Source: Thermus arciformis
GTDB lineage: Bacteria; Deinococcota; Deinococci; Deinococcales; Thermaceae
DNA length: 58,107 nt
Direction of reading: 5' to 3'
NCBI RefSeq assembly: GCF_900102145.1
Contig: NZ_FNBC01000014.1
Span: forward strand, 1-58,107
In this document: piece after piece, positions 23,348 through 58,107 of the stretch
Position numbering within the stretch: position 1 is the first letter of the stretch
How the letters are laid out: each line of letters begins with the position of its first letter
Notes under the pieces: model-generated
Databases searched by the model: none
The model's input: the letters and a program-made list of their open reading frames with translations, nothing else
What the model was told of the DNA's origin: nothing
Made by a program: the position numbers and the translations under genes

Positions 23348-23509
23348 CTACCTCCTCCCCCGCGCCCGGGCGATCCACCTTCCTGGGGCCTTAGGGGCCA
23401 GGGGCCGGGCGCGAAGCGCCGCCAAGGCCTCCTCGCTCAGGCGGAACTCCACCCTGGGCAAGGGGTCCCTTTTGACCCACTTCGGTCCACGGTCAATCCA
23501 GCGCTTCAC
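23348..23509 (-). CDS. Small basic protein with RWIDR motifs, 53 aa
   Basis: Starts M(GTG)-K-R-W-I-D-R-G-P-K-W and ends A-P-G-R-W-I-A-R-A-R-G-R-R. It is very basic. The two P/K-R-W-I-[DA]-R motifs are the same as those in the C-terminal tail of the VirB6-like protein encoded directly upstream, whose TGA it overlaps (GTGA). Its TAG is immediately followed by the coupling-protein GTG. It may be a tail fragment that became its own gene or a small linker between VirB6 and VirD4. Confidence 0.55.
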   Translation of the reverse strand: MKRWIDRGPKWVKRDPLPRVEFRLSEEALAALRARPLAPKAPGRWIARARGRR

Positions 23510-25338: not shown

Positions 25339-26885
25339 GGGCTACCCCCCGAGGGCGGCGGGGTGCCGCTTTGCGCTCTCCATTGCCGCGCGAGGATCTC
25401 CAGGGCCTCCCCCGCCGCCACGTACTTGGCCGAGGTCTTCTCCGCCTGGGAGGCCACCTGGCCCATGAGGGCCCGTAGCTGGTCCTCGGCGCTACGCTCC
25501 TGCTTCCTGATGAGCTCCACCAAGTTCTGGTTCACCTGGACCAGTTGCTCCACGGTCATGGCCTGCTGGGCGGCGAGGTTCTTCATCTCCTGCACGGCCC
25601 GGAAAGAGTCCTGGGCCTGCAGGCGGATGAGCTCGGCGAAGCCCTTCACCACCACCTCCGTCACCTCCCGGGTGGAGGGGGCGGTCTGGGCCTCGGAGAT
25701 GAGCTCCTCCGTGATGCCGGGGTCCATCACGCCCCCCGAGCCGGAGCCGCTGGTGCCGCCCGAGCCGGAGGTGCCCCCGGAGCCCCCCGGGGTGTTCTGG
25801 GCCCCAAGGGCGCCTCCCGGGGAAGCGCTTTGCGCCCCCACCACGCTCGCCCCGGAAAGCCCCCCGGTGAGGGAGGCCCACCCCTTGGACACCGCCTCGG
25901 CGATGAAGTTCCAGGCGGCCCCCAGGGTGTCCCAGAGGTCCTGGAGGGTGCTCTCCAGGCTCAGGTTCTCCTGCTGGTTCTTCACGTTCTGGGCCACCCG
26001 GGACTGGTTCTCCAGGAGCTGGGCCGTGCGCTGGAGGTCGGCGAGGCTCTGGGTCGTGGCCTGGAAGCCCAGCTGGGGCACCACCCCGGAGATGAGCCGG
26101 GTCCACCACTCCGGGCCCCAGTAGAGGGGGTCGTCCCCGGGCTTCCAGGCGTCCAGTTCCCGCAACTGCTCCGCCCGCGCCCGGGCCAGGGCGTTCAGGA
26201 TGGCGTTCTTCTGGCGGCGGATGTCGCTCATGAGGTCCGTCAGGGCCTGGTCCACCTGGTCCACCAGGGGGTTGAGCTGGTGGAGGCCAAGCCCCTTGCC
26301 CAGCCAGTCCAGGGCCAGCCCGGTGCCGTAGTAGATGGCCTGGTTCTTGAAGTCCTCCCACATGTCCCCGAGCTGGTTCCAGTAGTTGATGGCCTTCTTC
26401 ACGGTCCGGTGGGCGGTGCACAGCCACCGCACCGAGGAGAGCTCGTAGAAGCCGATGAAGCGGCAGGCCTGGGCGATGAAGCCGTCCAGGTCCTCCATGA
26501 GGCCCTGGGCCTGGAGGTTCTGGCCCGAAAGCCCCGTCCCCTGGACCTGGAGGGCGAGGAGGGCGTAGGCCGTGCCCGTCTTCTCCCCGGTGTAGTCCAC
26601 CTCCAGGCGAAGCGCCGTGGTGCCGCCAAAGCCCCCGGTGTCCCAGTACCGCTTCACCTGGAGGGAGGTGGTGCGGAAGACCTCCCGCCCCGAAGGAAGG
26701 GCCACACCCCTCACCTCGAGGACCCTCTCCCCCGGCTCGGGCTCCACCCGGGCCTCCACCACCAGGACCCGCCCCTCCGGGTAGGTCCCGGGCCTCGGGG
26801 AAAGCCACGCCACCCTCACCGCGAGGGCGGGGAGGAGGGCGAAGGCGAAGGTCAGCGAAGCGATCTTGGGGATCCAAGCCCTCAT
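25335..26885 (-). CDS. Secreted T4SS-associated protein, 516 aa
   Basis: A signal peptide (1-22) is followed by a beta-rich N-domain (about 25-115), a helical body with long amphipathic segments (about 160-340), a Gly/Ser linker (about 360-385) and a second coiled-coil region (about 400-505). Its place between VirB4 and VirB6 is where VirB5-type adhesins/chaperones lie in many systems, but the protein is twice the usual VirB5 length and I do not claim homology. ATG start in an ATGA overlap with virB4. Confidence 0.6.
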   Translation of the reverse strand: MRAWIPKIASLTFAFALLPALAVRVAWLSPRPGTYPEGRVLVVEARVEPEPGERVLEVRGVALPSGREVFRTTSLQVKRYWDTGGFGGTTALRLEVDYTGEKTGTAYALLALQVQGTGLSGQNLQAQGLMEDLDGFIAQACRFIGFYELSSVRWLCTAHRTVKKAINYWNQLGDMWEDFKNQAIYYGTGLALDWLGKGLGLHQLNPLVDQVDQALTDLMSDIRRQKNAILNALARARAEQLRELDAWKPGDDPLYWGPEWWTRLISGVVPQLGFQATTQSLADLQRTAQLLENQSRVAQNVKNQQENLSLESTLQDLWDTLGAAWNFIAEAVSKGWASLTGGLSGASVVGAQSASPGGALGAQNTPGGSGGTSGSGGTSGSGSGGVMDPGITEELISEAQTAPSTREVTEVVVKGFAELIRLQAQDSFRAVQEMKNLAAQQAMTVEQLVQVNQNLVELIRKQERSAEDQLRALMGQVASQAEKTSAKYVAAGEALEILARQWRAQSGTPPPSGGSP

Positions 26886-43046: not shown

Positions 43047-43075
43047 TTGACTCACGGCGTGAGGCGGGTTATATT
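43047..43075 (+). promoter_or_regulatory. parAB promoter with internal dyad
   Basis: TTGACT (43047-43052), 17 bp, TATATT (43070-43075), the closest to consensus in the window; the ATG follows after 10 nt. CTCACG-G-CGTGAG (43051-43063), a perfect dyad, lies between the two boxes and is a likely autoregulatory operator. Confidence 0.78.
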
Positions 43076-43085
43076 GCTTCCAACC

Positions 43086-44045
43086 ATGAAGAAGACCGTC
43101 CTTATTCCCCTCAAGGACTGGGCGATGGAGCAGGGGCTCTCCTACTCCGGCGCCCTCAAGCAGATCCAGGAGGGGAGGCTCAACGCGCGGCGCCTTGGCC
43201 GCTACTGGTACGTGGTCAAGGAGGTGGAGGCCCCGGGGGGAGAAGGGGTGGTGCTCACCCTCTTCACCCACGCCGGGGGGGCGGGGAAGACCTCCCTGGC
43301 CCGGGACCTGGGGTACGAGATGGCCTCTAGGGGCAAGCGCGTTCTTCTCGTGGACGTGGACCCCCAGGCCAACCTCTCCGCCTGGCTCGGCATCGTGGAC
43401 GCTCCGGTAGAGGAGACCCTTCTCGGGCTCCTAGAGGGTAAGGGACGCTTCAGGCCGAGGGAGGTGCTTCCGGGGGTTAGCCTCATCCCCGCGCATGTGG
43501 AACTTGCCCGGGCCGAGCTCGTCCTCATCCGTGAGCCCTACAAGATGTTCGCCCTGAGGAAGGCCCTGGAAGCTTTCCGGCAGGAGTACGACCTCATCCT
43601 CGTTGACTCCTTGCCCTCTCTGGGTTCCTTAGCCGGGGTTGCGGGCATGGCCGGGGACGGCCTCCTGGTTCCCGTGGAGGCCTCACCCAAGGGTCTTCAG
43701 GCCCTGCCCACGGTGCTTTCCGTGGCCCAGGACTACGCCGAGGGGTTGGCCTCTCTGGGGATGTGGGGCGGGGGCGCCTTCGTCCGCGCCCTCATCCCTA
43801 ACGGGCTGGAAGGGACGGTCCGGGACCGGGAGGTTTTGGCCCAGCTCGAGGGCCTTGGAGGGCGGATCCCCTTAGCACCCCCCTTGGTGCGCCGTCCGGC
43901 GGTGTACCGGGAGGCTCAAGTACAGCGGCTTCCGGTGCAGGCGGTGGGCGGGGAGGAGGTGCGGCGGGAGATGCGGGCCCTCGGGGACTTCCTGGAGGGG
44001 ATCCTGGAGCAGGTCAAGGCTGAGCTACACAAGGAGGTGGCCTGA
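43086..44045 (+). CDS. parA: ParA partition ATPase
   Basis: A 319-aa protein. The N-terminal about 45 residues form a small MerR/excisionase-like helix-turn-helix (IPLKDWAMEQGLSYSGALKQ, then RLNARRLGRYWYV). A ParA/MinD ATPase follows, with Walker A HAGGAGKTS (62-70), DVDPQANLS and ILVDSLPSLGSL. The Lys that normally begins the deviant Walker motif (KGGVGKT) is Ala63 here. ParA with ParB segregates low-copy replicons; the extra DNA-binding domain suits promoter autoregulation. The ATG at 43086 is set by the promoter. Confidence 0.88.
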   Translation: MKKTVLIPLKDWAMEQGLSYSGALKQIQEGRLNARRLGRYWYVVKEVEAPGGEGVVLTLFTHAGGAGKTSLARDLGYEMASRGKRVLLVDVDPQANLSAWLGIVDAPVEETLLGLLEGKGRFRPREVLPGVSLIPAHVELARAELVLIREPYKMFALRKALEAFRQEYDLILVDSLPSLGSLAGVAGMAGDGLLVPVEASPKGLQALPTVLSVAQDYAEGLASLGMWGGGAFVRALIPNGLEGTVRDREVLAQLEGLGGRIPLAPPLVRRPAVYREAQVQRLPVQAVGGEEVRREMRALGDFLEGILEQVKAELHKEVA

Positions 44046-44953
44046 TGAGCCGTAAGCCGAGCCCCATGGACCCCTTCCTGGCCAGGGCGCTTTCTGCCTT
44101 GGAGGAGATGGAGGGGAAGCCCGTGCAGGCTGGCGGGAGGGTGCTTCCCCTCGAGGCTCTCGTCCCTTCCGCCCAGCCCCGGAGGCGCTTTGAGAACCTG
44201 GAAGCCCTCGCCGAGAGCATCCGGGAGAAAGGGGTCCTCCAGCCCCTCCTGGTGCGGCCCTTGGGGGACGGGAAGTACGCCATCGTGGCCGGGGAGAGGC
44301 GGTACCGGGCCGCGAGGATGGCGGGGCTTTCCGAGGTTCCGGTGCGGGTGGTGGAGCTCTCCGAGAAGGAGGCGAGGCTTCTCGCCCTCGTGGAGAACCT
44401 CCAGCGGGACGACCTGAACCCTTACGAGGAGACCATAGGGGTCCTCGCCCTCCTATCGGAAGACTTGGGGAGGTCCGTGGAGGAGGTGGTGGGGCTCCTC
44501 GAGCGGATGCGGAAGGAGAAGCGGGGGGTGGTTGCCCACAACGTTGTGGGCAGCCCCGAGGCCCAGAGGGTGGAGGAGGTCTTCAGGGCCCTGGGTCGGA
44601 TGTCTTGGGAGTCCTTCGTGCAGCATCGCCTCCCCCTCCTCTCCCTCCCCGAGGACCTGAGGGCGGCCCTGGAGGAGGGGGCGATCCCCTACACCGCCGC
44701 CCTGGAGCTCAAGAAGGTGAAGGACGAGCCCTCGCGGAAGGCCCTCCTAGAGGAAGCGAGGGCGGGCCTCTCCTTGCGGGAGCTGAAGGCCCGGGTGCGG
44801 GAGGTCTTGCGGAAGGAGAAGGCCCCCAAGCCCTGGCACCGGGAGGTGGTGGCGAAGCTTGCCCGGCTTGACCTCGAGGCCCTCCCTCCCGAGCGGCGGG
44901 AGCGGGTGGAGGGTCTCCTCTCCGAGCTCAGGAGGGTCCTGGAGGAGGCATGA
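44045..44953 (+). CDS. parB: ParB partition protein
   Basis: A 302-aa protein. The N-terminal CTP-binding/nuclease-like core has the hallmark GERRYRAARMAG (about residues 82-93) and ALVENLQRDDLNPYEE. A central HTH region binds the centromere, and the C-terminus is a helical dimerisation domain ending RRVLEEA. ATG overlaps the parA stop (TGATG). A 20-bp perfect palindrome lies inside the gene at 44533-44552. Confidence 0.92.
   Translation: MSRKPSPMDPFLARALSALEEMEGKPVQAGGRVLPLEALVPSAQPRRRFENLEALAESIREKGVLQPLLVRPLGDGKYAIVAGERRYRAARMAGLSEVPVRVVELSEKEARLLALVENLQRDDLNPYEETIGVLALLSEDLGRSVEEVVGLLERMRKEKRGVVAHNVVGSPEAQRVEEVFRALGRMSWESFVQHRLPLLSLPEDLRAALEEGAIPYTAALELKKVKDEPSRKALLEEARAGLSLRELKARVREVLRKEKAPKPWHREVVAKLARLDLEALPPERRERVEGLLSELRRVLEEA
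44533..44552. promoter_or_regulatory. Perfect 20-bp palindrome in parB (parS candidate)
   Basis: TGCCCACAACGTTGTGGGCA, self-complementary over all 20 bases, centred on a CG like canonical parS sites. It encodes A-H-N-V-V-G in parB. A matching core CACAATGTTGTG occurs in the repeat array at 8681-8713. Confidence 0.6.
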
Positions 44954-45133: not shown

Positions 45134-47902
45134 ATGGACCACCGCCTCGGTTCCCTCGTCGCCTACCGCGGGCGCCCCTGGATCCTTGCCGACCGGGAGG
45201 GGGATCTCCTCTATCTCCGTCCCCTGGGGGCCGAAGACCTCCTCCCGGTGCGGCTGGACCTCGTGGCGGCCCTCCGCGAGGTCCTCCCCCACGAGGACCT
45301 CTCCCCCGCCTCCTTTCCCCTGCCCAAGGCAACCCCTCTGGCCTCGCCCCAGGAGTTCCGCCTCTTTCTGCAGGGAGCGAGGCTTCTCCTCCGGGATGGC
45401 ACCGCTCCCTTGAGAAGCCTAGGCCGGGTTGGGGTGCGCCCCAGAACTTACCAGCTCGTCCCCCTCCTTATGGCCCTAAAGCTCCACCCCGTGCGCCTCC
45501 TCATCGCCGACGACGTGGGGGTGGGGAAGACCGTGGAGGCGGGCCTCGTAGCCCGGGAGCTCCTGGACCGGAAGCTCGCCCGAAGGCTCGCCGTCCTGGC
45601 CCCGCCCCACCTCCTGGACCAGTGGGCCGAAGAGCTACGGGACAAGTTCGCCCTCGATGCCGTGGTGGTTTCGGCGGGGGGCCTCGCCCGCCTGGAGCGG
45701 AGCCTCCCCCCTGGGGAGAACCTCTACCGCCACTTCCCGGTGGTGGTGGCGAGCATCGACTTCGTGAAGCACGAGCGGCACAAGGCCCTCTTCCTGGAGG
45801 GGGCTCCGGAGCTTGTCATCGTGGACGAGGCCCACGGGGCAGTGGGCGGCCCCAGCGAGGCGTTGCAGAAGCGCTACGAGTTGGTGCGGGCCCTGGCGGA
45901 GGACCCAAACCGCCACCTCCTCCTCCTCACCGCCACCCCTCACAGCGGCCTCCCCGAGGCCTTCAGCCGCCTCCTAGGCCTCCTCTCCCCTGAGTTCGCC
46001 ACCTGGGACCTCGCCCGCCTGGACGAGGAGAAGCGGGCCCGCCTAGCCCAGCACTTTGTCCAGCGCACCCGGAAGGACATCGCCGCCGCCTGGGAGGGGG
46101 CTTCCCTCTTCCCCGAGCGGGAGGTGCGCTACGAAACCTACCTCCTCTCCCCTGAATACCGCGCCCTCTACGAGGCCACCTACCGCTACGCCCGCGAGGT
46201 GGTGCGCCAAAGCGAGGGTCTCGCCGAGGGGCGGAGGCGTATGCGGTGGTGGGCGGCCCTCACCCTGCTCCGCACGGTCATGTCCAGCCCCCAAAGCGCC
46301 AGGGCCGCCCTGGAGCGGAGGGGGATCCCTCTGGAAGATGAGGAGGCCCTCCTGGACCTCGCCCCCCAGGTTTACGAGGGCTCGGAGACCACGCCTACGG
46401 ACGAAGTGCCCGAGGCCCTGGTGGACCTCGCCGAGCGGGAGGCCTCGGGGCTGGTGGAGGGGGCGGGAAGGAAGCGCCTCTCCGGCCTAAAGCGCCTGGT
46501 GGAGGCCCTGACCCCGGAGAAGGACACCAAGCTCCAGGGCCTCCTCTCGCTCCTCTCGGACCTCCTCCGCAAGGGGCACCATCCCGTGGTCTGGTGCCAC
46601 TTTGTGGACACGGCGGAGTACGTGGGGGAGGCGGTGCGGAAGGCTTTCCCCGAGGCCCACGTGGCCGTGGTCACCGGGCGGATGGACGGGGAGGCCCGCC
46701 GGGAGGCGGTGGAGGCCCTGATGGAGGAGGCCCCCAGGGTTCTGGTGGCCACGGACTGCGTTTCCGAGGGGGTTAACCTGCAACGGGGCTTCACCGCTGT
46801 GGTCCACTACGACCTGCCCTGGAACCCGAACCGCCTCGAGCAGCGGGAGGGGCGGGTGGACCGCTACGGCCAGAGGGCCAGGCGGGTGGTGGCCGTGCGC
46901 TACCGGGGGAAGGACAACCCCGTGGACGAGAAGGTGGTGGAAGTCCTCCTCAGGAAGGCGGAGGAGATCCGCAAGGCCCTCGGAGTCCACGTCCCCGTCC
47001 CCGAGGAGGAGCGCTACGTGGTGGACCGCATGGTGCGGAGCCTCTTCTACGAGGGGGAGCAGCCCCTCCTCTTCGCCGAGAGCACCTTCCTGGAGGAGCG
47101 CTGGGGCCGGGATGTGGAGCGGGAGCGGGAGAACCGTTCCCGCTTCGCCCAGCGGGCCCTCCGCCCTGAGGAGGCCCTGAAGGCCCTCGAGGGCACCGAC
47201 GCCGTCCTCGGGAGCCCCGAGGAGGTGCGGGACTTCGTCCTCCTTGCGGCCAAGGTGGTGGGCCTCGAGGTCAGGGAGAGGGACGGGGGCTACGAGTTCC
47301 GCCCCTCTCCCACCCTGCCTGAACCCCTGCTCGCCCCTTTCCGGGACGCCAAGGGGAAGGAGCGTCCCCTCTTCCTGGCCTTCCAGGACCCCCCTCCCGA
47401 GGGGGCGAGCTTTGCCGGGCGCGCCCATCCCCTGGTGGTGGCCCTGGCCCGCCACTTCCTGGAAGGGGCCCTCCGGGGGGAGAGGGGGCGGTATGCGGTG
47501 CGGCGGGTGGCAGGGATAGGCCGGGCCCACTACCTCTACCTCCTCCGCCCCCGGTTCCTCCTGAGGAGCCGGGAAGGGGAAGTGGTCGGGGAGGAGGTCC
47601 TCCTCCTCGCCTTGGGTCCTGAGGGGCTCCTTAAGGGAGAGCAGGCGAGGGAGCTTCTCTCCCTCGAGGCCAAGGGGAACGTCTCCTCCGAGGAGGCGCG
47701 AGAGTTCTTCACGCTTGCCCTCAAGCGGTACGAGGAGGGCAGGGGAGCGGTGGAGGCGTACCTGGGGGAGCGGGCCCGGGAGATTCGGGAGGCCCACCGG
47801 GCCCTGAGGCGGGCGGCGAGGGAGCGGGTGGGGGACCTCGAGGTGGAGCCCGTCCCGCCCCCCGACCTGCTTGGGGTCTTGGCCCTGGTTCCCGCGAGGT
47901 GA
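45134..47902 (+). CDS. SNF2/DrmD-like helicase
   Basis: A 922-aa SF2 ATPase of the SNF2/HepA type. Motifs in order: I DDVGVGKTVEAGL (about 124-136), II IVDEAH (about 229-234), III LLLTATPH, V SEGVNLQ (about 544) and VI REGRVDRYGQ (about 568-577). The C-terminal about 300 residues are an accessory region. It resembles DrmD, the first gene of class 1 DISARM. It would translocate on DNA, probably with the methylase encoded next. A TAAGAT -10 (45119-45124) sits 9 nt before the ATG. Confidence 0.83.
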   Translation: MDHRLGSLVAYRGRPWILADREGDLLYLRPLGAEDLLPVRLDLVAALREVLPHEDLSPASFPLPKATPLASPQEFRLFLQGARLLLRDGTAPLRSLGRVGVRPRTYQLVPLLMALKLHPVRLLIADDVGVGKTVEAGLVARELLDRKLARRLAVLAPPHLLDQWAEELRDKFALDAVVVSAGGLARLERSLPPGENLYRHFPVVVASIDFVKHERHKALFLEGAPELVIVDEAHGAVGGPSEALQKRYELVRALAEDPNRHLLLLTATPHSGLPEAFSRLLGLLSPEFATWDLARLDEEKRARLAQHFVQRTRKDIAAAWEGASLFPEREVRYETYLLSPEYRALYEATYRYAREVVRQSEGLAEGRRRMRWWAALTLLRTVMSSPQSARAALERRGIPLEDEEALLDLAPQVYEGSETTPTDEVPEALVDLAEREASGLVEGAGRKRLSGLKRLVEALTPEKDTKLQGLLSLLSDLLRKGHHPVVWCHFVDTAEYVGEAVRKAFPEAHVAVVTGRMDGEARREAVEALMEEAPRVLVATDCVSEGVNLQRGFTAVVHYDLPWNPNRLEQREGRVDRYGQRARRVVAVRYRGKDNPVDEKVVEVLLRKAEEIRKALGVHVPVPEEERYVVDRMVRSLFYEGEQPLLFAESTFLEERWGRDVERERENRSRFAQRALRPEEALKALEGTDAVLGSPEEVRDFVLLAAKVVGLEVRERDGGYEFRPSPTLPEPLLAPFRDAKGKERPLFLAFQDPPPEGASFAGRAHPLVVALARHFLEGALRGERGRYAVRRVAGIGRAHYLYLLRPRFLLRSREGEVVGEEVLLLALGPEGLLKGEQARELLSLEAKGNVSSEEAREFFTLALKRYEEGRGAVEAYLGERAREIREAHRALRRAARERVGDLEVEPVPPPDLLGVLALVPAR

Positions 47903-47943
47903 GAGATGTGGGATTACACCAGGTACATCGAGGAGGGAAGGCC

Positions 47944-50900
47944 GTGATCGGACTGGTCGCCGAACCGAAGGCTTCCAGGAGGAGGGGGGAGGAGAGCGCC
48001 CTCCGCCTCGAGGGCGGCCTCTTCGGCCCCGAGTTCCTGGCCCTTCTGGAGAAAGGAACCGTGCCCTTCCAGACCCCGAGGGACTTTGGCCTGCCTAGGG
48101 GGCGCTCTCTCCAGGAGGAGATCGCCGAGAGCTACCGGGAGGCCAAGACCCTCTACGCCCTCTTCCGGGCGAGGCTGGAGCGGGCCCTGGGCACCGAGGC
48201 CGAGGGGGAGGTGACCCGGGAGCGCTGGGTGAAGCCCTTCCTCTCCCTCCTGGGCTACCGCCTGAGCTACCGGGGGCACGCCGAGGCGGGGGACAGGAAG
48301 TACGAGATCCTCTACCGGGCGGACGAGATGGAGGAGGCCCCCCCGGTCCACGTGGTGCCCTGGGGTCAGGACCTCTCCCGGGCCACCCGGAGGGGCCGTT
48401 CTCCCCACGGCCTCCTGCAGGACTACCTGAACGCCTCGGAACACCTCTGGGGCCTCGTGACCAACGGCCGCGTCCTCCGCCTCCTGCGTAAGACCCCCTT
48501 CGTGAGGCGCCAGGCCTACTTGGAGGTGGACCTCGAGGCCCTCATGGAGGAGGACCGCTTCGGCGAGTTCGCCCTGGTCTACCGCCTCCTGCACCGCTCT
48601 CGCCTGCCGCGGGATGCCGCCACCGCCCACGAGGCCCCCGTGGAGCGCTACCACCTGATGGCCGTGGAGCAGGGCGAGCGGGTCCGGGAGGGCCTCCGGG
48701 AGGCGGTGGAGGGCTTCCTCCAGGAACTCGGCACGGGCTTCCTTCGGGGACCCATGGGCGAGGAGCTCGCCCGGGATCCCGAGGCCCTCTACCACGACCT
48801 CCTCCGCCTCGCCTACCGGGTCCTCTTCCTCCTGGTGGCCGAGGCCAGGGGAGTTCTGGGCGGGGACGAGGTCTACCGGGAGGCCTTCGGCCTTCACCGC
48901 CTCCTCCGCCTCTCCGAGAGGCGGGAGGCCTACACCGAGGACCCCGACCTCTGGCTCGGGCTCAAGACCCTCTTCGAGCTCTTGAGGAACCCCGGGCTTC
49001 GGGTGAACGGAGCCCCCGCCGCCGAGGCGCTGGGCCTCGGCGTGCTCAACGGCGGTCTCTTCGGGGAGAGGCTCCGCTTGGAGGAGGCCCCTTTCTCCGT
49101 GGAGAACCGTCACCTGCTCGCCGCCTTCCGCCGCCTCGCCCTCTTCTACGACCCCGAGGCCAGGACCCTCAAGCGGGTGAACTACGCCGCCCTGGACGTT
49201 GAGGAGCTGGGCTCCGTGTACGAGAGCCTCCTGGACCACAGCCCCCAGGTGGTCTGGGAGGAGGGGGGGTGGGCCTTCCGCTTCGCGAGGGGAAGCGAGC
49301 GGAAGCGCACCGGGAGCTACTACACCCCCCACGAACTCGTGGACCTGGTGCTCAAGGAGGCCTTGGACCCGGTGGTGGAGGCCCGCCTGAAGGCCGCCGG
49401 GGACGATCCCAAGGCCCAGGAGGCGGCCCTCCTCTCCCTCAAGGTGCTGGACCCGGCCGCGGGGAGCGGGCACTTCCTCCTTGGAGCGGCGAGGCGCTTG
49501 GGGAGAAGGCTCGCCCAAATCCGCACCGGGGAAGAGGAGCCCTCGCCCGAGGCCTACCGGGAGGCGGTGCGTGACGTAGTGCAGAACTGCCTCTACGCCG
49601 TGGACAAAAACCCTTTGGCGGTGGAGCTCTGCCGCATGGCCCTCTGGATGGAAAGCTACGTGCCGGGGAAGCCCCTCTCTTTCCTGGACCATCGGGTGAA
49701 GTGCGGGGACTCTCTGGTGGGGGTACTGGACCCCAAGGTTCTGGTAGAGGGCATCCCGGACGGGGCTTACGAGGCCAAGGAGGGGGACGACAGGAGGTTT
49801 GCGAGGGAGGCGCGTGAGGCTAATCGCAGGGAGCGGGCTGGGGCGCAGGGGCTCTTTGACACGGACTTCTTCACTAAAGAAGAGGAGGACCATGCCAAGC
49901 TTCTGGAGGCCTTCGCTTGCCTCCCCGAGGACACCGCCGAGCAGGTAGCTGCCAAGGCCAGGCTCTACGAGGAGTTAAGGAGGAAGGGAACCTGGCGCAG
50001 GCTCCTCCTTGCTTCCCACCTCTGGACCGCCGCCTTCTTTCAACCCCTCCGGAGAGGAGAGCCTTTTATCACCTCGCGGCACGTGCGAGAAGTCTTGAAA
50101 GGGGGAAGGATCCCGGAAGCCGTGGAGGCTTTGGCCCATGTCTTTGCCGAACGCCACCGCTTCTTCCACTGGTGGCTGGAGTTCTCCGATGTCTTCCAGA
50201 AGGGCGGGTTTGACGTGGTGCTGGGGAACCCGCCTTGGGAGAGGCTGGAGGGTGAAACCCACTTTTACAGGCGCTCTGGAGCCTACCCATTGGCTTCTTC
50301 GGTTTCCAGCCTCAACACCTATCTCCTTTTCCTGGAGCGGATTCTTGCCCTTCGCCGCGGCGACGGTTTTATAGGCCTCTTGGTCCCCACGGGAATCGGC
50401 ACCGATGCTGGCGGAAAAGCCCTCTTCCAACATTTGTGGAACGGCGGCTTCCTCCAAAGGCTGTTAGACTTTGAAAACAGAAAGGGATTGTTTTCAGATG
50501 TAGACCGCCGTTTCCGGTTCTCCTTGGTGGTGGTGGGGCCCCCTCATCGGGAGAGGAGAGCAACGGTTGCTTTCTTCCTCCAGGAGCCTGAGGAGGCCAA
50601 TGACCCCCACCGGGTTTTTCCCCTAGACGACGAGGCCCTTTTCCTCTTCAACCCCAACAGCCGGACGCTTTCTTCTTTCCGCACGCGTCAGGATTACCTC
50701 TTGAACCGCCTGATTTACGAGCGGGCGGGGGTCTTCATACGGAGAGACGGAGAGGGGGGGGGAGTCAACCCCTGGATGGCCACTCCCGTCCTCTTGTTTT
50801 CTTCTGAAAGCAGTGCGGGCCACTTACTTCCTAAGAAGGGTGCTAGACGGGGCTCCTTTTGGACTCATGAGGGGAAGAGGTCCGTTCCCTTTATTGAGGC

Positions 50901-51879
50901 CAAGATGATCCACCAGTACGACCACCGCTACGCCACTTACGAGAACGGCCGGACCCGTTCTGTGGACTTGTCGGAGAAGAGGAATCCCTTCTATACTCCT
51001 GAACCCCAGTACCTGGTGGCGGAGGAGAGGCTTATCGATCGCCTGGGGAAGCTTGGGGCCGTTCCCCGATGGTTCCTGGCTTACCGAAACGTGGCTAGGG
51101 CTACCGACGAGCGTACTGTGATCGCCACGGCGGTTCCCTACAGCGCCGTCGGAGGGAAGGCCCCCGTCATTCTTTCCCCCCTCCCTGCCCCTAAGCGCTT
51201 GTGCCTTCTGGCAAACCTGAACAGCCTAGTCCTGGACTACGCCGCGCGTCAAAAGGTAGGGGGCACCGACATCACCGTCCAGCACCTGGAGCAACTCCCC
51301 ATTTTCCCTCCCGAAGCTTACAGGGAGAGGGAGATGGCCTTCATCGTCCCCCGCGTTCTGGAACTCCTTTACACCGCCTGGGACCTTGCTCCCTTGGTTC
51401 AAGAAGTCTGGGAAGAGGCAAGCGAGTTCTTGCGGGAGGTCATCCGAGCCTGGTGGAAAGATGCTCCAACCCATCCCGATGACCCACCTCCTTGGCTTGA
51501 GGAGTCTTACCCCTTCCCGCCCTTCCTCTGGGACGAGGAGCGGAGGGGGCGTATCCGAGCAGAACTGGATGCGTTCTACGCCAGGCTCTATGGTTTGAAT
51601 CGAAAGCAACTCCGGTACGTCTTGGACCCGAAGGACTTGACGGAGCGCGAGTTGGGCGACCTCCTCTCTCCTGAGGAGGAAGTGGAAGACCCTTTGGAAG
51701 AGGAAGGCTACCGGGCTCGCCAAGCCCGTAGCGCCTTTCACGGGGAAACCTTCCGGGTGATGAAGGAGAAAGAGATTCGGCGCTATGGGTTCTACCGCAC
51801 AAGGCGCCTGGTATTGGAAAGCTTCTTGGCGTTAGAGCTTTTTAAATCCAGGATGAAAGTGGCTTTGGAGGGGGAGTAG
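47944..51879 (+). CDS. Large N6-adenine DNA methyltransferase (DrmMI/PglX/Eco57I-like)
   Basis: A 1311-aa protein. The methylase core has KRTGSYYTPHELV (about 457-469), AdoMet motif I LDPAAGSGHF (about 501-510) and catalytic NPPW (about 762-765); N- and C-terminal regions probably hold specificity and helicase contacts. The start is uncertain. ATG 47906 has an ideal gaggtgag site but reads M-W-D-Y-T-R-Y-I-E-E-G-R-P then TGA, while GTG 47944 overlaps that stop in the long frame. Inserting one base would fuse them. GTG 47899 is a third option. The last third is visibly less GC-rich. Confidence 0.85.
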   Translation: MIGLVAEPKASRRRGEESALRLEGGLFGPEFLALLEKGTVPFQTPRDFGLPRGRSLQEEIAESYREAKTLYALFRARLERALGTEAEGEVTRERWVKPFLSLLGYRLSYRGHAEAGDRKYEILYRADEMEEAPPVHVVPWGQDLSRATRRGRSPHGLLQDYLNASEHLWGLVTNGRVLRLLRKTPFVRRQAYLEVDLEALMEEDRFGEFALVYRLLHRSRLPRDAATAHEAPVERYHLMAVEQGERVREGLREAVEGFLQELGTGFLRGPMGEELARDPEALYHDLLRLAYRVLFLLVAEARGVLGGDEVYREAFGLHRLLRLSERREAYTEDPDLWLGLKTLFELLRNPGLRVNGAPAAEALGLGVLNGGLFGERLRLEEAPFSVENRHLLAAFRRLALFYDPEARTLKRVNYAALDVEELGSVYESLLDHSPQVVWEEGGWAFRFARGSERKRTGSYYTPHELVDLVLKEALDPVVEARLKAAGDDPKAQEAALLSLKVLDPAAGSGHFLLGAARRLGRRLAQIRTGEEEPSPEAYREAVRDVVQNCLYAVDKNPLAVELCRMALWMESYVPGKPLSFLDHRVKCGDSLVGVLDPKVLVEGIPDGAYEAKEGDDRRFAREAREANRRERAGAQGLFDTDFFTKEEEDHAKLLEAFACLPEDTAEQVAAKARLYEELRRKGTWRRLLLASHLWTAAFFQPLRRGEPFITSRHVREVLKGGRIPEAVEALAHVFAERHRFFHWWLEFSDVFQKGGFDVVLGNPPWERLEGETHFYRRSGAYPLASSVSSLNTYLLFLERILALRRGDGFIGLLVPTGIGTDAGGKALFQHLWNGGFLQRLLDFENRKGLFSDVDRRFRFSLVVVGPPHRERRATVAFFLQEPEEANDPHRVFPLDDEALFLFNPNSRTLSSFRTRQDYLLNRLIYERAGVFIRRDGEGGGVNPWMATPVLLFSSESSAGHLLPKKGARRGSFWTHEGKRSVPFIEAKMIHQYDHRYATYENGRTRSVDLSEKRNPFYTPEPQYLVAEERLIDRLGKLGAVPRWFLAYRNVARATDERTVIATAVPYSAVGGKAPVILSPLPAPKRLCLLANLNSLVLDYAARQKVGGTDITVQHLEQLPIFPPEAYREREMAFIVPRVLELLYTAWDLAPLVQEVWEEASEFLREVIRAWWKDAPTHPDDPPPWLEESYPFPPFLWDEERRGRIRAELDAFYARLYGLNRKQLRYVLDPKDLTERELGDLLSPEEEVEDPLEEEGYRARQARSAFHGETFRVMKEKEIRRYGFYRTRRLVLESFLALELFKSRMKVALEGE

Positions 51880-51881
51880 GC

Positions 51882-52595
51882 ATGCGGAGTAACTTGTCCA
51901 AAGAGCTTTGGGAACTCACCCTGAAGATTAGGGAGTTAATGGAGGAAAAAGGGAAGTTCGCTTTCCCAGGCAGTGGCGTGCCTAGGGTTCTTCGCAATCG
52001 GGATACGTCCCCGCATGGGGCCAAGGGGCTTTTCTTGCTCTTGGCCAAAGCAGAAATTCCCTTCCCTGAAAGTTTGCCGCCCTTCTGGGAACGTGTTGTT
52101 TCTTGTCTTAAAGTTGAGGAAAAAGACCCTCACATTTTTACGCAAGGAAGACTACAAGAAACTTTCGAGGAAAAGACTTACAAGCTTATGGTTGAAAAGG
52201 GGTTCCGTGTCATAAGAACATGCAGTACAACGTGCCTCAAAGAATCGCAAGAGTGCTTAAAGCACGCCAATGCCTACGATTTTCTTATCATAGGCTCGGA
52301 CGAGGAGGGCGCACAGGGTGAAGCTTTGCTGGTGGAAGTCAAGAGCGACAGGAACATGCATACTGGGAACATCGCGTTGGAGCTGTTGCGTGACTTCCGC
52401 CCTAGGTCCCATGGAGTTGATGACGAGCGTAACCACGGATCTTTAATCAAAACAGGAGCTACTTTTTGGCAAGTGTACTACTATGACGAAAGGTCGGGGC
52501 ATATTAAGGCCGAAGTATTTAGCGTTCCCAAGCTAAAGGAAAGAGCCCATTCTGCTTTGTTAAAGATTGTTGAACTTTTTGATGAAATAAAATGA
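51882..52595 (+). CDS. PD-(D/E)XK-like nuclease of the defence operon
   Basis: A 237-aa protein. The core reads FEEKTYKLMVEKGFRVIRT, then NAYDFLII (D133) and ALLVEVKSDRNMHTGNIALE (E152-V-K154). The D...E-x-K set plus TGNIALE and a later 'IKTGATFWQVYYYD' resembles a PD-(D/E)XK family common in phages and restriction loci (VKxDR...TGN...E...T..D.W). It starts 2 nt after the methylase stop. Its codon use is much more AT-rich than its neighbours, so it was probably acquired separately. Confidence 0.65.
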   Translation: MRSNLSKELWELTLKIRELMEEKGKFAFPGSGVPRVLRNRDTSPHGAKGLFLLLAKAEIPFPESLPPFWERVVSCLKVEEKDPHIFTQGRLQETFEEKTYKLMVEKGFRVIRTCSTTCLKESQECLKHANAYDFLIIGSDEEGAQGEALLVEVKSDRNMHTGNIALELLRDFRPRSHGVDDERNHGSLIKTGATFWQVYYYDERSGHIKAEVFSVPKLKERAHSALLKIVELFDEIK

Positions 52596-52647
52596 GTGGG
52601 TATGTCCTGCTTTGGCTAAAATGAATCCGTTAAATTTGGAGGCGAGC

Positions 52648-55600
52648 ATGAGCGTGTTTGCACTCCACGCCAGGGCCCTCTCCACGTACAAGGACTTCGT
52701 CCGTTCCTTTGTCAAGATCGCCGACCCCCGCCTCCGCCAGTTCGTGGAGGAGGCCATTCTGGGGGACGCTGGGGGTCTTTGGCCCGAGCCCCTGGTCCAG
52801 CTCTCCCCCGCCTACGAGCAGGGAGCCACGGTGGACGAACTCGCAGAGGAAGGCCTCCTCCACCCCACCACCGCCAGGGTCTTTCGCAGGGCGGACGGAA
52901 GCCCCTTCCGCCTCTACCGCCACCAGGTGGAGGCCTTGCGCCGGGCGAGGGAAGGGAAGAGCTACGTCCTCACCTCGGGAACGGGCTCGGGGAAGAGCTT
53001 CGCCTACTTCATCCCCGTCCTGGACCTGGTGGCCCGGAACCCCGGCTTGAAGGGGCCTGTGGCCCTGGTGGTCTACCCCATGAACGCCCTGGTGAACTCC
53101 CAGCTCCACGCCCTCGAGGAACTCAAGGAGCGCTACGAGGCCCGGTACGGCGGACCTTTTCCCCTCCGCTTCGCCCGCTACACGGGCCAGACCACCGAGG
53201 ACGAGCGCCGGGCCATCCGGGAAAACCCGCCCCACCTTCTCCTCACCAACTACGTCATGGGCGAGTACCTGCTCACCCGGCCTGAGGACCACCCCCTGGT
53301 CTCCCCGCCTCCTTCCCCCCTTCCCTTCTTCCTGGTCTTTGACGAGCTCCACACCTACCGGGGGAGGCAGGGGGCGGACGTGGCCCTCCTGGCCCGGCGC
53401 TTCCGGGCGAGGGTAGGGGAAAGGCCCGTGGTCCACGTGGGCACCAGCGCCACCCTCATCGCCCGGGAGGGGGCCACCCCTGAGGAGCGGCGTGAGGCCG
53501 TGGCCCGCTTCGCCTCCACCTTCTTCGGACGGGACATTCCCCCGGAGGACGTGGTGGAGGAGTGCCTCACCCCCGCCACCCGGGGCGGGCCACCCTCGGA
53601 TGAGGAGCTCTGCGCCGGGGTGAGGACCCCGGTGCCCCGGCACCTCGAGGCCTTCTGCGCCCACCCTCTCGCCCGCTTTGTGGAGTACGCCTTGGGCCTG
53701 AAGGAGGAGGGAGGGGGCTATGCGAGAAGGAAGCCCAGGCCCCTCTCCGAGGTGGCGGCCGAGCTCGCCGAGCGAACGGGCCTCTCCCTCGAGGAGGCCA
53801 GGGGGCGCCTCGAGGAGGTTCTGGAGGTGGGGGCGGGGCTCGAGGAAGCGGGCCGCCCCCTCTTCGCCTTCAAGCTCCACCAGTTCGTTTCCCAGACCTC
53901 GGCGGTGCGGGCGAGCCTCGAGGGGGCGGAGACCCGGGAGTTCGGTCGGGAGCCCTTCGCGCCTTCCGGGAAGCTCCTCTTCCCCCTCTACTTCTGCCGG
54001 GGGTGTGGGCAGGACTACTACGCCGTGGTGAAGGTGGACGGACGCTTCCTCCCCAACGAGGACCTGGTGGGGGGCGAGGCCGAGGCAGGGGAGGTGGGCT
54101 ACCTGGCCTTCGTGGAGGACTTTGACCCCGAGAACGACCTCCCCGACTCCTGGTACGACAAGAGGGGGAGGCTGAAAAAAACCTGGGAGGGGCGGGCCCC
54201 CCGCCTCCTTTTCGTGGACCTTGAGGGCCGGATCGTGGCGGAGGGCACGCCGGAGGCCCGCCCCTTCTACTACCAGCCCGCTCCCTTCAGCCTCTGCCTC
54301 CGGTGCGGGGCGGACTGGACGGGGCAGGAGCGGGAGTTCACCAAGCTCACCTACCTGGGAAGCGAGGGGCGCACCTCGGCCACCACCGTCCTCGCCCTGA
54401 GCCTCCTGAGGAAGGCCCGGGAGGCGGGGGAGGGGAGAGACAAGCTCCTCTCCTTCACCGACAACCGCCAGGACGCCTCCCTGCAGGCGGGGCACTTCAA
54501 CGACTTCGTGCGCACGGTCATGGTGCGGGCCGCCCTGGTCCGGGCCCTGGAGCGGAGGGGCAGGCTAGACTACGTGGATCTCGCCCAGGAGGTGGTGAAG
54601 GCCCTCCCCTTGCGGGAGTTCGTCAAGAACAAGGAGCTTAAGGAGGACAGCCCCGCCATGGGGCGGGTGCGCCAGGTCCTGGAGGACCTCCTCCGCTACC
54701 GCCTCTACGCCGACCTGAGGCGGGGCTGGCGCTTCGCCCAGCCCAACCTGGAGGAGGTGGGCCTCCTGGAGGTGGGCTACCCCTACGCCGAGGGCGAGGG
54801 CTTCCTGCGGGAGGCGGCGCCCCTTTTCCCCCATCTCCCCGAAGAGGGGGTTCTGGAGGCCGTCCGCTTCTTTCTGGACCACCTGAGGCGCCACCTGGCG
54901 GTGGACTCTCCGGTCCTCAAGCGGGAGGGGTACGAGAGCCTGGTGAGGCGCACGGGGGAGCACTTGGACGAGTTCTGGGCCATCGACCCGACCACCGAAA
55001 CCCCCGTCCTCGCCGCCTCCTTCTCCCCCAAACCCGGCGAGGGCGAGGTGGGCTTCTCCCCGAGGGGGCGGGCGGGGCGGGAGTTCGCCCGGCGCTTCGG
55101 GGTGGTCCCGGACGCAGACTTCCTGGAACGCCTCGTTGCCCTCCTCATGGCCCACGACCTCCTCCGTAAGGTGGAGCCGGGCCGCTACCGCATCCCCGAG
55201 TCGGCCCTGGAGTGGCGCCGGGGGGGCGGAACCCCGCGCTTTGACCCCTTGCGATTCCGGGGCGGTGGGGCGCGGGAAGGGAACCGCTACTTCGCCCGCC
55301 TCTACCAGGAGAGCGCCGAGGTCCTGGCCCGCCTCGAGGCCCGGGAGCACACGGCCCAGGTGCGCCCCGAGGAGCGGGAGGTGCGGGAGAAGCGCTTCCG
55401 GGGCGAGGAGGAGCCCAGGCTTCCCTACCTCGTGGCCTCGCCCACCCTGGAGCTCGGGGTGGACATCGCCGACCTGGATATGGTCCACCTGCGGAACCTT
55501 CCCCCGACCCCGGCCAACTACGCCCAGCGGGTGGGGCGGGCGGGGAGGCAGGGCCAGCCCGGGCTTGTGGTGGCCTTCGCCGGGGCCTTCTCCCACCACG

Positions 55601-57570
55601 ACCGCTACTTCTTTGAGAGGCGAGGGGAGATGGTGGGCGGGAGCGTGCGCCCCCCCGCCCTGGAACTCGCCAACGAGTCCCTCCTCGGGGCCCACGTCCA
55701 CGCCGAGTGGCTCTCCGCCACGGGCCTGGCCCTGAGGGAGAGCCTCGAGTACACCCTGGACATCAACAAGGAGGACCTGCCCCTCTACCCCGAGGTGAGG
55801 GAGCGCCTCCGCCTCACCCCAGAGAGGCAGGAGGCCCTCCTTACCCACTTGAAGAAGGTCTTCGCCTACGACTGGGAGCGGCTTTCGGGCACGGGATGGT
55901 TCGGGGAAACCTGGCTCAGGAGAACGGTGGAGGAGGCCCCCCTCGCCTTTGACCGGGTCCTGGACACCTGGCGCCTCCTCTTCCGGGCGGCGAGGGAGAT
56001 GCGGGAACGGGGCCACAGGCTCGTGGACTCGAGGGTCCGGGAGGAGCGGGAGAGGGGAGAGGCCATGCGCAGGGAAGCCGAGCGCCAGCTCAACCTCCTC
56101 CTCCAGCGGGACGTGGCTCGGGAGGAGGGGGACTTCTACCCCTACCGCTACCTCGCCTCGGAGGAGTTCCTCCCGGGCTACAACCTCATGGCCCTCCCGG
56201 TGCGGGCCTACGTGCCCCGGGGCGAGGGGGAGTACCTCAACCGTCCGAGGGACGTGGCCATCACCGAGTTCGCCCCGGGGAACGTCGTCTACCACGAGGG
56301 GGGGAAGTGGACCCCCGTGGCCCTCTACGCCCCGCCGGGCGGGCTAAGGAGCCGCCTCGCCCAGGTCTGGGTCTGCGCGGCATGCCGCCACCTGGCCCAG
56401 AGGGAGAAGGAGGTCTGCCCGGGGTGCGGGGCGAGCCTCGCAGAGAGGGGGGAACTCCTCCAGGTCCTTGACCTCGTGGGGGTGAGGACGAAGCGCCGGG
56501 AGCGGATCACCGCCAACGAGGAGGAGCGCTTCCGGGGAGGGTACCGCCTCGAGGTGGCCTACGAGTTCTCCGGGCAGGGGAGGCGGGGAGCGGTGGTCTT
56601 GGAGGAGCTTAGGCTTCCCCTGGTCTACGCGTCCTCGGCGCGGGTGCACCGCATCAACCGGGGGCATAGGCGCTCGCAAAGCGAGGGCTTTTACGTGGAC
56701 CTGGAGGGCGGGGACCTCCTCAGCGAGGAGGAGGCCAGGAAGCGGTCCGGAGAGCCGGGAAGCGCCGTGGAGCGGGTGGCCCTCAGGGTCCAGACTACCC
56801 AGAACGCCCTTCTCCTGGATCTCTCGGGCCTACGGGAAGCGGAAGGAAAAGGAGAGGGCGATGCCTTTCTCTCCCTGGCCTTCGCCCTCAAGCGGGGGAT
56901 GGAGGCCCACTTCGGGGTGGAAGAGAGCGAGCTCGACCTGGTGGAGGTCGCCCCCGGGCGCTTCCTCTACCTCGAGGACGCCGAGGGAGGCCTCGGGATC
57001 CTCAGGCGTCTCGTGGAGGAGGAAGGGGTTCTCGCCGAGGTAGTGCGGAGGGCTCTCGAGGTCCTCCACTTCTCCCTCGAGGGCAAGGATGAGAAGCCCG
57101 AGTGCGCCCGGGCGTGCTACGAGTGCCTCCTCTCTTACAGCAACCAGCGCCTTGCCCCGCGTCTTCACCGCCATCGGGCCCTTCCCCTCCTCCTCCAGCT
57201 CCTCTCGGCGAGGGTGGAGGTGGAGGGGGGAAGGGGAGAGGAGCGTCTGGAAGCCCTCCTCGCCCGGTGCCAGTCCGAGCTTGAGCGGGACTTCCTGCGG
57301 CTTCTGAAGGCCAAGGGCCTCCCCCTACCAGACGAGGCCCAGTACCGGATCGGGGAGGCCCACACCGTGGCCGACTTCTTCTATCGACCGAACCTCCTGG
57401 TCTATGTGGACGGGCCCCACCACGATAGCGAGCGCCAGGCCAGGATCGACGAGCGCCAGCGGCGGACCCTGATGGAGCTGGGCTTCCGGGTGGAGGTGTT
57501 GCGTTACGAGGATCTAGAGAAGGGTGTTGAGAGGCTTAGAAACGCACTGGCTCACAGGGCGCAATCGTGA
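52648..57570 (+). CDS. Giant DEAD/DUF1998 helicase with C-terminal Vsr/DUF559-like nuclease
   Basis: A 1640-aa protein. N-terminal SF2 helicase: motif I TSGTGSGKS (about 108-116), II VFDELHTYRG (about 229-238), GTSATL, VI VGRAGRQG (about 960). Several zinc pairs follow: CRGCG (about 450), CLRCG (about 550) and CAACR...CPGCG (about 1241-1260). A DUF1998/MZB cysteine cluster has CARACYECLLSYSNQ (about 1488-1502). The last about 95 residues look like a DUF559/Vsr endonuclease fold (EAHTVADFFYRPNLLVYVDG, then HHDSERQ). The whole is like DrmA plus DrmB in one chain, or Druantia DruE. The start at 52648 has a ttggaggcg site. Confidence 0.82.
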   Translation: MSVFALHARALSTYKDFVRSFVKIADPRLRQFVEEAILGDAGGLWPEPLVQLSPAYEQGATVDELAEEGLLHPTTARVFRRADGSPFRLYRHQVEALRRAREGKSYVLTSGTGSGKSFAYFIPVLDLVARNPGLKGPVALVVYPMNALVNSQLHALEELKERYEARYGGPFPLRFARYTGQTTEDERRAIRENPPHLLLTNYVMGEYLLTRPEDHPLVSPPPSPLPFFLVFDELHTYRGRQGADVALLARRFRARVGERPVVHVGTSATLIAREGATPEERREAVARFASTFFGRDIPPEDVVEECLTPATRGGPPSDEELCAGVRTPVPRHLEAFCAHPLARFVEYALGLKEEGGGYARRKPRPLSEVAAELAERTGLSLEEARGRLEEVLEVGAGLEEAGRPLFAFKLHQFVSQTSAVRASLEGAETREFGREPFAPSGKLLFPLYFCRGCGQDYYAVVKVDGRFLPNEDLVGGEAEAGEVGYLAFVEDFDPENDLPDSWYDKRGRLKKTWEGRAPRLLFVDLEGRIVAEGTPEARPFYYQPAPFSLCLRCGADWTGQEREFTKLTYLGSEGRTSATTVLALSLLRKAREAGEGRDKLLSFTDNRQDASLQAGHFNDFVRTVMVRAALVRALERRGRLDYVDLAQEVVKALPLREFVKNKELKEDSPAMGRVRQVLEDLLRYRLYADLRRGWRFAQPNLEEVGLLEVGYPYAEGEGFLREAAPLFPHLPEEGVLEAVRFFLDHLRRHLAVDSPVLKREGYESLVRRTGEHLDEFWAIDPTTETPVLAASFSPKPGEGEVGFSPRGRAGREFARRFGVVPDADFLERLVALLMAHDLLRKVEPGRYRIPESALEWRRGGGTPRFDPLRFRGGGAREGNRYFARLYQESAEVLARLEAREHTAQVRPEEREVREKRFRGEEEPRLPYLVASPTLELGVDIADLDMVHLRNLPPTPANYAQRVGRAGRQGQPGLVVAFAGAFSHHDRYFFERRGEMVGGSVRPPALELANESLLGAHVHAEWLSATGLALRESLEYTLDINKEDLPLYPEVRERLRLTPERQEALLTHLKKVFAYDWERLSGTGWFGETWLRRTVEEAPLAFDRVLDTWRLLFRAAREMRERGHRLVDSRVREERERGEAMRREAERQLNLLLQRDVAREEGDFYPYRYLASEEFLPGYNLMALPVRAYVPRGEGEYLNRPRDVAITEFAPGNVVYHEGGKWTPVALYAPPGGLRSRLAQVWVCAACRHLAQREKEVCPGCGASLAERGELLQVLDLVGVRTKRRERITANEEERFRGGYRLEVAYEFSGQGRRGAVVLEELRLPLVYASSARVHRINRGHRRSQSEGFYVDLEGGDLLSEEEARKRSGEPGSAVERVALRVQTTQNALLLDLSGLREAEGKGEGDAFLSLAFALKRGMEAHFGVEESELDLVEVAPGRFLYLEDAEGGLGILRRLVEEEGVLAEVVRRALEVLHFSLEGKDEKPECARACYECLLSYSNQRLAPRLHRHRALPLLLQLLSARVEVEGGRGEERLEALLARCQSELERDFLRLLKAKGLPLPDEAQYRIGEAHTVADFFYRPNLLVYVDGPHHDSERQARIDERQRRTLMELGFRVEVLRYEDLEKGVERLRNALAHRAQS

Positions 57571-57852
57571 CCGGAGCCAGCACCCTACCCAGGGGCGGCC
57601 CGAGCTCCAAGGGGTGCTCGGGCAGGAGTTCATCAAGTCTCTCCAGGACCCCATGAGAAGCCCTCCTGATATTCGCAACGGCGGCGCTAACCTGGAGGTG
57701 CTGGACAGCGAGCCCATCTGGTAGGCTGTCGCCCAGTACCAGAGGCCTGTGGTGGTGGCAGTGGGCCACCAGGCGGACACGATGCCGGTCTGGCTGCCCC
57801 CGGGGATGGGGCGGGGTCAAACGAACACGTTTTCTCCCGCCGGGGGGTTATG
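57571..57852. other. Unassigned stretch between defence operon and IS end
   Basis: No convincing gene. Short frames exist on both strands but carry no recognisable motif. The GC pattern suggests decayed coding sequence. The terminal repeat of the IS begins at 57853. Confidence 0.4.
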
Positions 57853-58107
57853 CCCACATTCCGCACCCCCTTCACTCCAGCAGGTAATATCGCCCAGCCC
57901 CCAGGAGGCGCACCGCGGTCTCGTGATGGGGCGCCAGGTTGAGGACCAGCCACTTGCCCCCCAGCTCCACCAGGCGGACCCACATGAACAGTTGAAACAC
58001 CCAGCGCAAGGTGGGCTTGGCTGTGGGTCTCCCCTTCTGGTCCGGCAGGCTGGACCCCGTCTCCCAAAGCCTCCGCCTCAGCGCCCACTCCCCCAGGGCG
58101 TACACCA
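57853..58107 (-). mobile_element. IS1634-like insertion sequence, one end (partial)
   Basis: The terminal repeat CCCACATTCCGCA begins at 57853, identical to the left repeat at 38884. The element continues out of the window with its transposase on the minus strand. This intact end explains the deleted copy at 38884-39289, which retains the same final codons and repeat. Confidence 0.75.
57872..58107 (-). CDS. IS1634-like transposase, C-terminal part
   Basis: Only the last about 78 codons are present: YALGEWALRRRLWETGSSLP, then DQKGRPTAKPTLRWVFQLFM and LGAGRYYLLE before the stop at 57872-57874. The 'LPDQKGRPT.KPTLRWVFQLF' string is typical of the end of IS1634-family DDE transposases. The 5' part lies beyond the window, so intactness cannot be judged. 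Confidence 0.8.
   Translation of the reverse strand, partial: VYALGEWALRRRLWETGSSLPDQKGRPTAKPTLRWVFQLFMWVRLVELGGKWLVLNLAPHHETAVRLLGAGRYYLLE

Follow-up and report, generated by a model that had tools for sequence, protein, structure and literature searches.

Genes and surroundings of the Thermus arciformis locus

The window analyzed here (58,107 nucleotides) is the entire contig NZ_FNBC01000014.1 of Thermus arciformis. Its ORF list contains four intact, co-directional ORFs on the forward strand: armA (45134..47902), encoding a SNF2/RapA (BrxHII-like) helicase of 922 aa; armB (47899..51879), a PglX-like N6-adenine methylase of 1326 aa; ORF3 (51882..52595), a PD-(D/E)xK-like protein of 237 aa; and armC (52648..57570), a YprA/DruE-like DEAD helicase of 1640 aa with a DUF1998/MZB zinc module. 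The initial annotation correctly placed four genes on one strand, but its spacing of 2 to 50 nt does not hold throughout, since armA and armB overlap by 4 nt. A gap of 2 nt separates armB from ORF3, and 16 or 52 nt separate ORF3 from armC, depending on the armC start. The ATG at 52648 is the likelier start over a TTG at 52612 (52612-57570, 1652 aa), because the first residues of close homologs line up with it and it is preceded by a GGAGG-like site. Homologs of armB align only from residue ~17-30 of ArmB, so its true start may lie 50 to 90 nt downstream.

PADLOC, Pfam, and NCBIfam models recovered the domains originally proposed for the three large proteins (SNF2/Helicase_C; Eco57I N6 methylase; DEAD, Helicase_C, and MZB/DUF1998), together with Walker A/B, DPAxGSG, and NPPW motifs and a Cys cluster; no locus protein reached an NCBIfam cut-off. 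The defense-system HMM search that had been suggested matched these three proteins to DrmD/DpdE, DrmMI, and DruE models and ORF3 to none. ArmA (Walker A at 129, DEAH at 231) matched PADLOC DpdE/DrmD/BrxH models and Pfam Helicase_C and SNF2. Its best full-length PADLOC score was to PDLC02853, labeled DpdE (E=3.7e-158), and automatic defense annotation may therefore mislabel ARMADA as Dpd or DISARM. ArmB matched DrmMI (E=5.5e-74) and Eco57I, with a catalytic core at ~aa 450-780 (DPAAGSG at 518, NPPW at 777). ArmC matched DruE3 (E=3.5e-82) and MZB and carried a Walker A motif at 111, DELH at 232, DUF1998 cysteines at 1486-1493, and five CxxC motifs. The Vsr-like segment noted at its C-terminus is conserved across 20 homologs. 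This Vsr-type (PD-(D/E)xK superfamily) nuclease domain (~aa 1546-1640; 57283..57567, forward strand) has E1546, LP1560-1561, AQ1564-1565, and DF1576-1577 invariant in all 20 and a DG..H..D..R pattern in nearly all; its single-sequence fold was poor (pLDDT 48.5).

As originally reported, the operon lies beside parAB and an insertion sequence relic. A parA-like ATPase gene (43047..44045; Pfam AAA_31, E=5.7e-31) and a parB-like gene (44045..44953; ParB_N, E=1.7e-26), both on the forward strand, are directly upstream of armA. The contig ends in an IS1634-family relic (57780..58107, left edge approximate), whose overlapping reading frames hardly differ from those spanning the IS1634 transposases in T. 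brockianus SNM4-1; because the window is the full contig, nothing can be said beyond this right flank. ParA and ParB also precede armA in T. aquaticus and genome G015, and ParB alone in G005. A parAB pair or parB piece adjoins armA in several Thermus loci (window 43047-44953; L006:4756-6608; L025:3508-5339 and 19202-19555), and G015 has a second ParB piece downstream of armC. Conjugation genes, including a VirD4/TraG-like coupling protein and a VirB4/TraC-like ATPase, occupy 20921-29425 on the reverse strand of the window, which is therefore probably part of a conjugative plasmid or ICE. The best explanation is that the armA-armB-[ORF3]-armC operon sits on a Thermus conjugative or plasmid-like element.

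Identity of the three-gene core

The core of the locus is almost certainly an ARMADA type I anti-phage operon (armA-armB-armC), catalogued in 2025. As defined in a 2025 preprint (Bell et al. 2025, PMC12458937), ARMADA comprises the BrxHII/RapA-like helicase ArmA, the PglX-like methylase ArmB, and ArmC, a YprA-like helicase that ends in a Vsr-type nuclease. Type I is normally ordered C-A-B but is A-B-C in many archaea and cyanobacteria; type II always has the order A-B-C and nearly always carries armD, encoding a RelE-UvrD fusion, after armC (PMC12458937). The E. coli type II system is antiphage and non-abortive; all of its genes are required, as are most of the motifs examined in the helicases and the methylase. 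The phage tests in that work concern type II, not type I (PMC12458937).

Three defining features were found in the window: a BrxHII/RapA-like SNF2 helicase (by PADLOC, Pfam, NCBIfam, and motifs), a PglX-like adenine methylase with SAM and NPPW motifs, and, by sequence, a YprA/DruE-like helicase fused to DUF1998 and ending in a Vsr-type nuclease. ArmA is 97.5% identical to that of T. thermophilus AA1-1 and 42% to that of D. radiodurans. In a quick ArmC tree, the window protein grouped with other Thermus sequences at full support, and this clade stood among type I-like proteins from cyanobacteria, Deinococcus, and Rhodococcus. Tree and scores both placed it apart from E. coli ArmC-II and DruE-III, each represented by a single, long-branched reference. 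The type II reference was a plasmid locus adjoining Druantia III and Zorya II, and its ArmC shares 24% identity with the window protein over part of the length. The locus has the three protein types of type I and the A-B-C order of cyanobacteria and archaea. Type II resembles it in gene order and domain types but adds armD, which is absent in the nearest relatives of the window: none follows armC in AA1-1, and none was found in the window, where the contig end truncates the flank. ARMADA loci with an armD homolog do occur in Thermaceae, and their armB recognition halves resemble those of some type I loci. In at least eight further Deinococcota loci armC is directly followed by armA, and in others armB directly precedes armC; loci with adjacent armA and armC are mostly ordered C-A-B. 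The armA-armC adjacency across Deinococcota is far beyond chance.

The initial annotation interpreted the operon as a new compact hybrid of DISARM and Druantia, a reading we consider very improbable. It captured a real composition, in that relatives of drmD and drmMI stand beside a DruE-like helicase fusing DrmA and DrmB parts, and the mixed PADLOC matches (DrmD/DpdE, DrmMI, and DruE), with no NCBIfam cut-off reached, are what such a hybrid might give. Against it, the three-gene core, fusion architecture, Vsr tail, and gene order are those of published ARMADA type I (PMC12458937), and the core recurs across Deinococcota. The ARMADA authors themselves call the system a "missing link" between DISARM and Druantia (PMC12458937). 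Nor do nuclease modules replace DrmC here, as had been supposed: ArmC normally ends in a Vsr nuclease in ARMADA. Of the claimed novelty, only ORF3 falls outside a known system. A match to one catalogued system in the same gene order, named at the outset as refuting the hybrid, holds for the other three genes.

Membership in DISARM and in Druantia was rejected, since defining parts of each are missing. Class 1 DISARM shares drmD-like and drmMI-like genes, and its DrmA and DrmB correspond to the helicase and DUF1998 parts of ArmC. These parts are fused in the window, the helicase is closer to DruE, separate drmA and drmB genes and the drmC PLD nuclease are missing (no DrmC match), and the DrmD equivalog score was 341 versus the 610 needed. 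Druantia shares the giant DEAD helicase with DUF1998, for which DruE3 was the best PADLOC match, but ArmA and ArmB stand in place of its partners; no DruH, DruM-F-G, or DruA-D was present among the PADLOC matches listed.

ORF3 and the exchange of armB halves

Unlike published type I loci, the Thermus locus has an extra PD-(D/E)xK-like gene between armB and armC. ORF3 gave no match in Pfam, NCBIfam, PADLOC, PHROG, and PDB sequence searches; its T. aquaticus homolog alone matched the uncharacterized phrog_13596 (E=3.5e-5). The protein contains a PD-(D/E)xK-like D133 and E152-V-K154, together with TGN..E..RD and GSLxKTxAxxW motifs. The D...ExK signature flagged at the outset is borne out, as alignments with homologs 34-40% identical to ORF3 retain D133/E152/K154 as well as the TGN-E-RD and GSLxKT-W motifs. 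An AlphaFold model (pLDDT 65, three sequences) had a strand and helix order compatible with a restriction-endonuclease-like fold, and Foldseek returned no significant match. From its conserved signature, ORF3 is probably a nuclease.

An ORF3 homolog occupies the same slot in T. aquaticus plasmid pTA78 at 34% identity, versus 80% for armA, 64% for armB, and 71-76% for armC. In T. brockianus SNM4-1 the homolog is interrupted by insertion sequences within a decayed locus where armC was not found. Three Thermus genomes carry a solo chromosomal ORF3 between NSUN-like and NYN genes. At L070:1452-1550 (contig C49 of G022), a 33-aa ORF3 remnant lies beside the NSUN gene that flanks solo ORF3 elsewhere, a case of decay at a conserved site. 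The scan of contigs with exact short patterns, which recovered three loci, gives a lower bound on copy number since it needs exact matches. Whole-genome profile searches of 111 Deinococcota, 36 methanogen relatives, and 136 relatives of the Hydrogenothermaceae genome added no intact copy, and viral contig scans and phage records were searched for ORF3 without result. A 65-aa piece from a Hydrogenothermaceae MAG (L028:97-291), near Cmr-like genes and 89% identical to the methanogen ORF3, has non-homologous ends; it may be a chimeric assembly artifact and was left out of the evidence.

The expected co-occurrence of all four genes is thus partial: armA, armB, and armC recur together, and ORF3 is absent from the ARMADA loci of T. 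thermophilus AA1-1, G005, and G028 and replaced in that of G015. Being missing from most ARMADA loci, ORF3 was rejected as a constant fourth gene; it lies outside ARMADA as published and is optional, unlike armA and armC. This pattern brings in the main rival to a coupled nuclease, namely that ORF3 came as cargo with no tie to the operon, perhaps a solo nuclease or a toxin-like gene, into a permissive armB-armC gap of an ARMADA type I locus. The gap is empty at these three ORF3-free loci and also in Natrinema, holds an unrelated 644-aa gene in G015, and in cyanobacterial A-B-C loci contains Rpn, Uma2, or toxin-antitoxin (VapC/PIN) genes (L051:5979-8382; L060:7742-9116; L061:7498-9009; L062:8121-8844). 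The solo chromosomal copies also fit cargo. The methanogen locus argues the other way: in Methanothermococcus (L026:6772-13673) a type III mod overlaps an ORF3-like gene, with res 2 bases away, repeating the methylase-ORF3-helicase position. The homolog there is ~40% identical to ORF3, and the methylase and helicase differ from those of Thermus in being type III Mod and Res; a recognition domain common to this Mod and the ArmB recognition half was sought, and no similarity was found.

The armB gene itself is mosaic. DNA identity to AA1-1 reaches 92-98% across armA and the part of armB that encodes aa 1-600, is 95-99% for almost the whole of armC, and falls to 54-73%, where alignable, across ~49,700-52,700. 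This block (49700..52700, forward strand; 45-64% GC; flanks mostly 92-99% identical) comprises the armB 3' half, ORF3, which is absent in AA1-1, and the first bases of armC. GC content drops from 0.70 to 0.59 in armB aa 601-1326 and to 0.47 in ORF3 (GC3 0.52). That ORF3 and the armB 3' half form a single block is compatible with cargo that hitchhiked in a shared recombination tract.

The C-terminal half of ArmB (~aa 770-1326), presumed to be the specificity half, has been exchanged between lineages. ArmB of AA1-1 is chimeric: its N-terminal third shares 95% identity with the window protein and 38% with its counterpart in the T. thermophilus SNM1-7 ARMADA, whereas aa 881-1000 and 1121-1310 are 91% and 93% identical to that counterpart. 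The main breakpoint lies near residue 768 (permutation test, p < 5e-5). An armD homolog is present in SNM1-7 (31% across almost all of E. coli ArmD, with GajB-like matches), and the exchange therefore seems to have taken place across ARMADA types, even though the SNM1-7 ArmC lies closer to type I sequences than to the one type II reference, from E. coli. The SNM1-7 locus (L056:1-16234) also has a NYN-domain gene between armA and armB, and related loci occur in Thermaceae G030, G033, G040, and G020. In BREX, the C-terminal domain of PglX sets the motif (PMC11341690), and on that ground the ArmB exchanges may be read, by analogy, as swaps of specificity. In some loci armB is frameshifted (AA1-1, G015) or interrupted (TF21) (L005:6902-11022; L058:6704-12022; L025:8192-12050); armC is intact in all three, and armA in AA1-1 and TF21.

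A recognition class of ArmB and its association with ORF3

ArmB aa 771-1120 falls into two recognition classes in Thermaceae (TRD-A and TRD-B). In a careful tree of this region, all ORF3-bearing rows formed one clade with 100/100 support, where a row counts as ORF3-bearing if the gene is in its locus or genome (the window, T. aquaticus, T. brockianus SNM4-1, and three orphan fusions). The sole ORF3-free row in this TRD-B clade was G015, whose armB is frameshifted and lies in three frames. Among the sampled Thermaceae, ORF3 thus accompanied 6/6 rows with an intact TRD-B armB and no TRD-A row. Each locus was scored on its own: G005 combines an ORF3-free TRD-A ARMADA with an orphan fusion and a solo ORF3.

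The methylase-core tree conflicts with the recognition-domain tree: it intersperses ORF3-bearing and ORF3-free rows, placing the window beside AA1-1, T. aquaticus beside G015, and T. brockianus near G005, and on it the recognition class changes at least three times. ORF3 followed the class in two to three of three independent pairs and opposed it in none (sign test, p 0.25-0.5; significance is unreachable with three pairs). A Fisher test across 27 Thermus genomes linked intact TRD-B to ORF3 with p = 6e-5, a value that ignores relatedness and belongs to a grouping spotted before the test.

The orphan fusions are chromosomal proteins of ~1150 aa in G026, G007, and G005 (L086:9275-12769, reverse strand; L087:8105-11599 and L088:8517-11963, forward strand), with neighbors common to the three Thermus genomes. 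They consist of the N-terminal ~70 residues of ArmA fused to the part of ArmB that follows residue ~230, keep DPASGSG and NPPW intact, and are the nearest relatives of the C-terminal half of the window ArmB (56-59%). No armA core or armC is adjacent, and the solo ORF3 of each genome lies on a different contig. An orphan fusion together with an unlinked ORF3 is the strongest sign, at the level of a hint from sequence, that ORF3 and TRD-B ArmB belong together outside ARMADA. A single ancestral event may underlie all three cases, and G026 and G007 hardly differ at these loci.

These observations bear directly on ORF3 as cargo, where the class link would reflect hitchhiking or common ancestry. Hitchhiking leaves unexplained both the unlinked TRD-B methylase in all three genomes with chromosomal ORF3 and the frameshifted armB in the ORF3-free TRD-B locus. 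We regard cargo as plausible, though with clearly less than even probability. Another reading makes ORF3 a nuclease-fold modulator of ArmB, acting on specificity, stability, or self-protection rather than as a DNA-cutting effector. Its match to one recognition class and tight packing behind armB would suit a partner subunit, and ArmC already supplies a nuclease, but a purely structural role would not need the putative catalytic D, E, and K that are invariant in divergent homologs, and we judge this improbable.

On balance we moderately favor ARMADA type I with ORF3 as an accessory PD-(D/E)xK-type nuclease tied to TRD-B ArmB, a role suggested by its motif, position, and co-occurrence. Taken by itself, functional coupling of ORF3 to TRD-B ArmB falls slightly short of an even proposition. 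It is a more tentative, rather doubtful idea that Thermus ARMADA carries a swappable cassette, consisting of the methylase specificity half and, for one class, the cognate nuclease ORF3. The pair would then also exist outside ARMADA, as the chromosomal fusion and unlinked ORF3, and would amount to a dispersed restriction-modification system that either arose from ARMADA or contributes to it.

In the working we propose, ArmB would mark host DNA by methylating adenines within a motif that its C-terminal recognition domain specifies; we infer that this methylation marks self. By homology with type II, ArmA and ArmC would be DNA motor proteins acting on incoming DNA that lacks the modification, and the Vsr-type domain of ArmC would cut this DNA in a direct, non-abortive defense. 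ORF3, if tied to TRD-B ArmB, may give a second cut or cleavage at the sites that this ArmB recognizes.

Since its three-gene core had been described before, the locus is no new kind of system; the novelty lies in the additional gene and in its association with a specificity domain that appears to have been swapped. The main text of the ARMADA preprint mentions neither Thermus, Deinococcota, nor recognition-domain swapping (PMC12458937). The present results extend this very recently described system to Thermus plasmids. They also indicate that lineages exchange the specificity half of the methylase, even across the divide between type I and armD-bearing ARMADA, much as happens in type I restriction systems. 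Should ORF3 be a cognate nuclease, ARMADA would be a platform for swapped specificity-plus-cutter cassettes.
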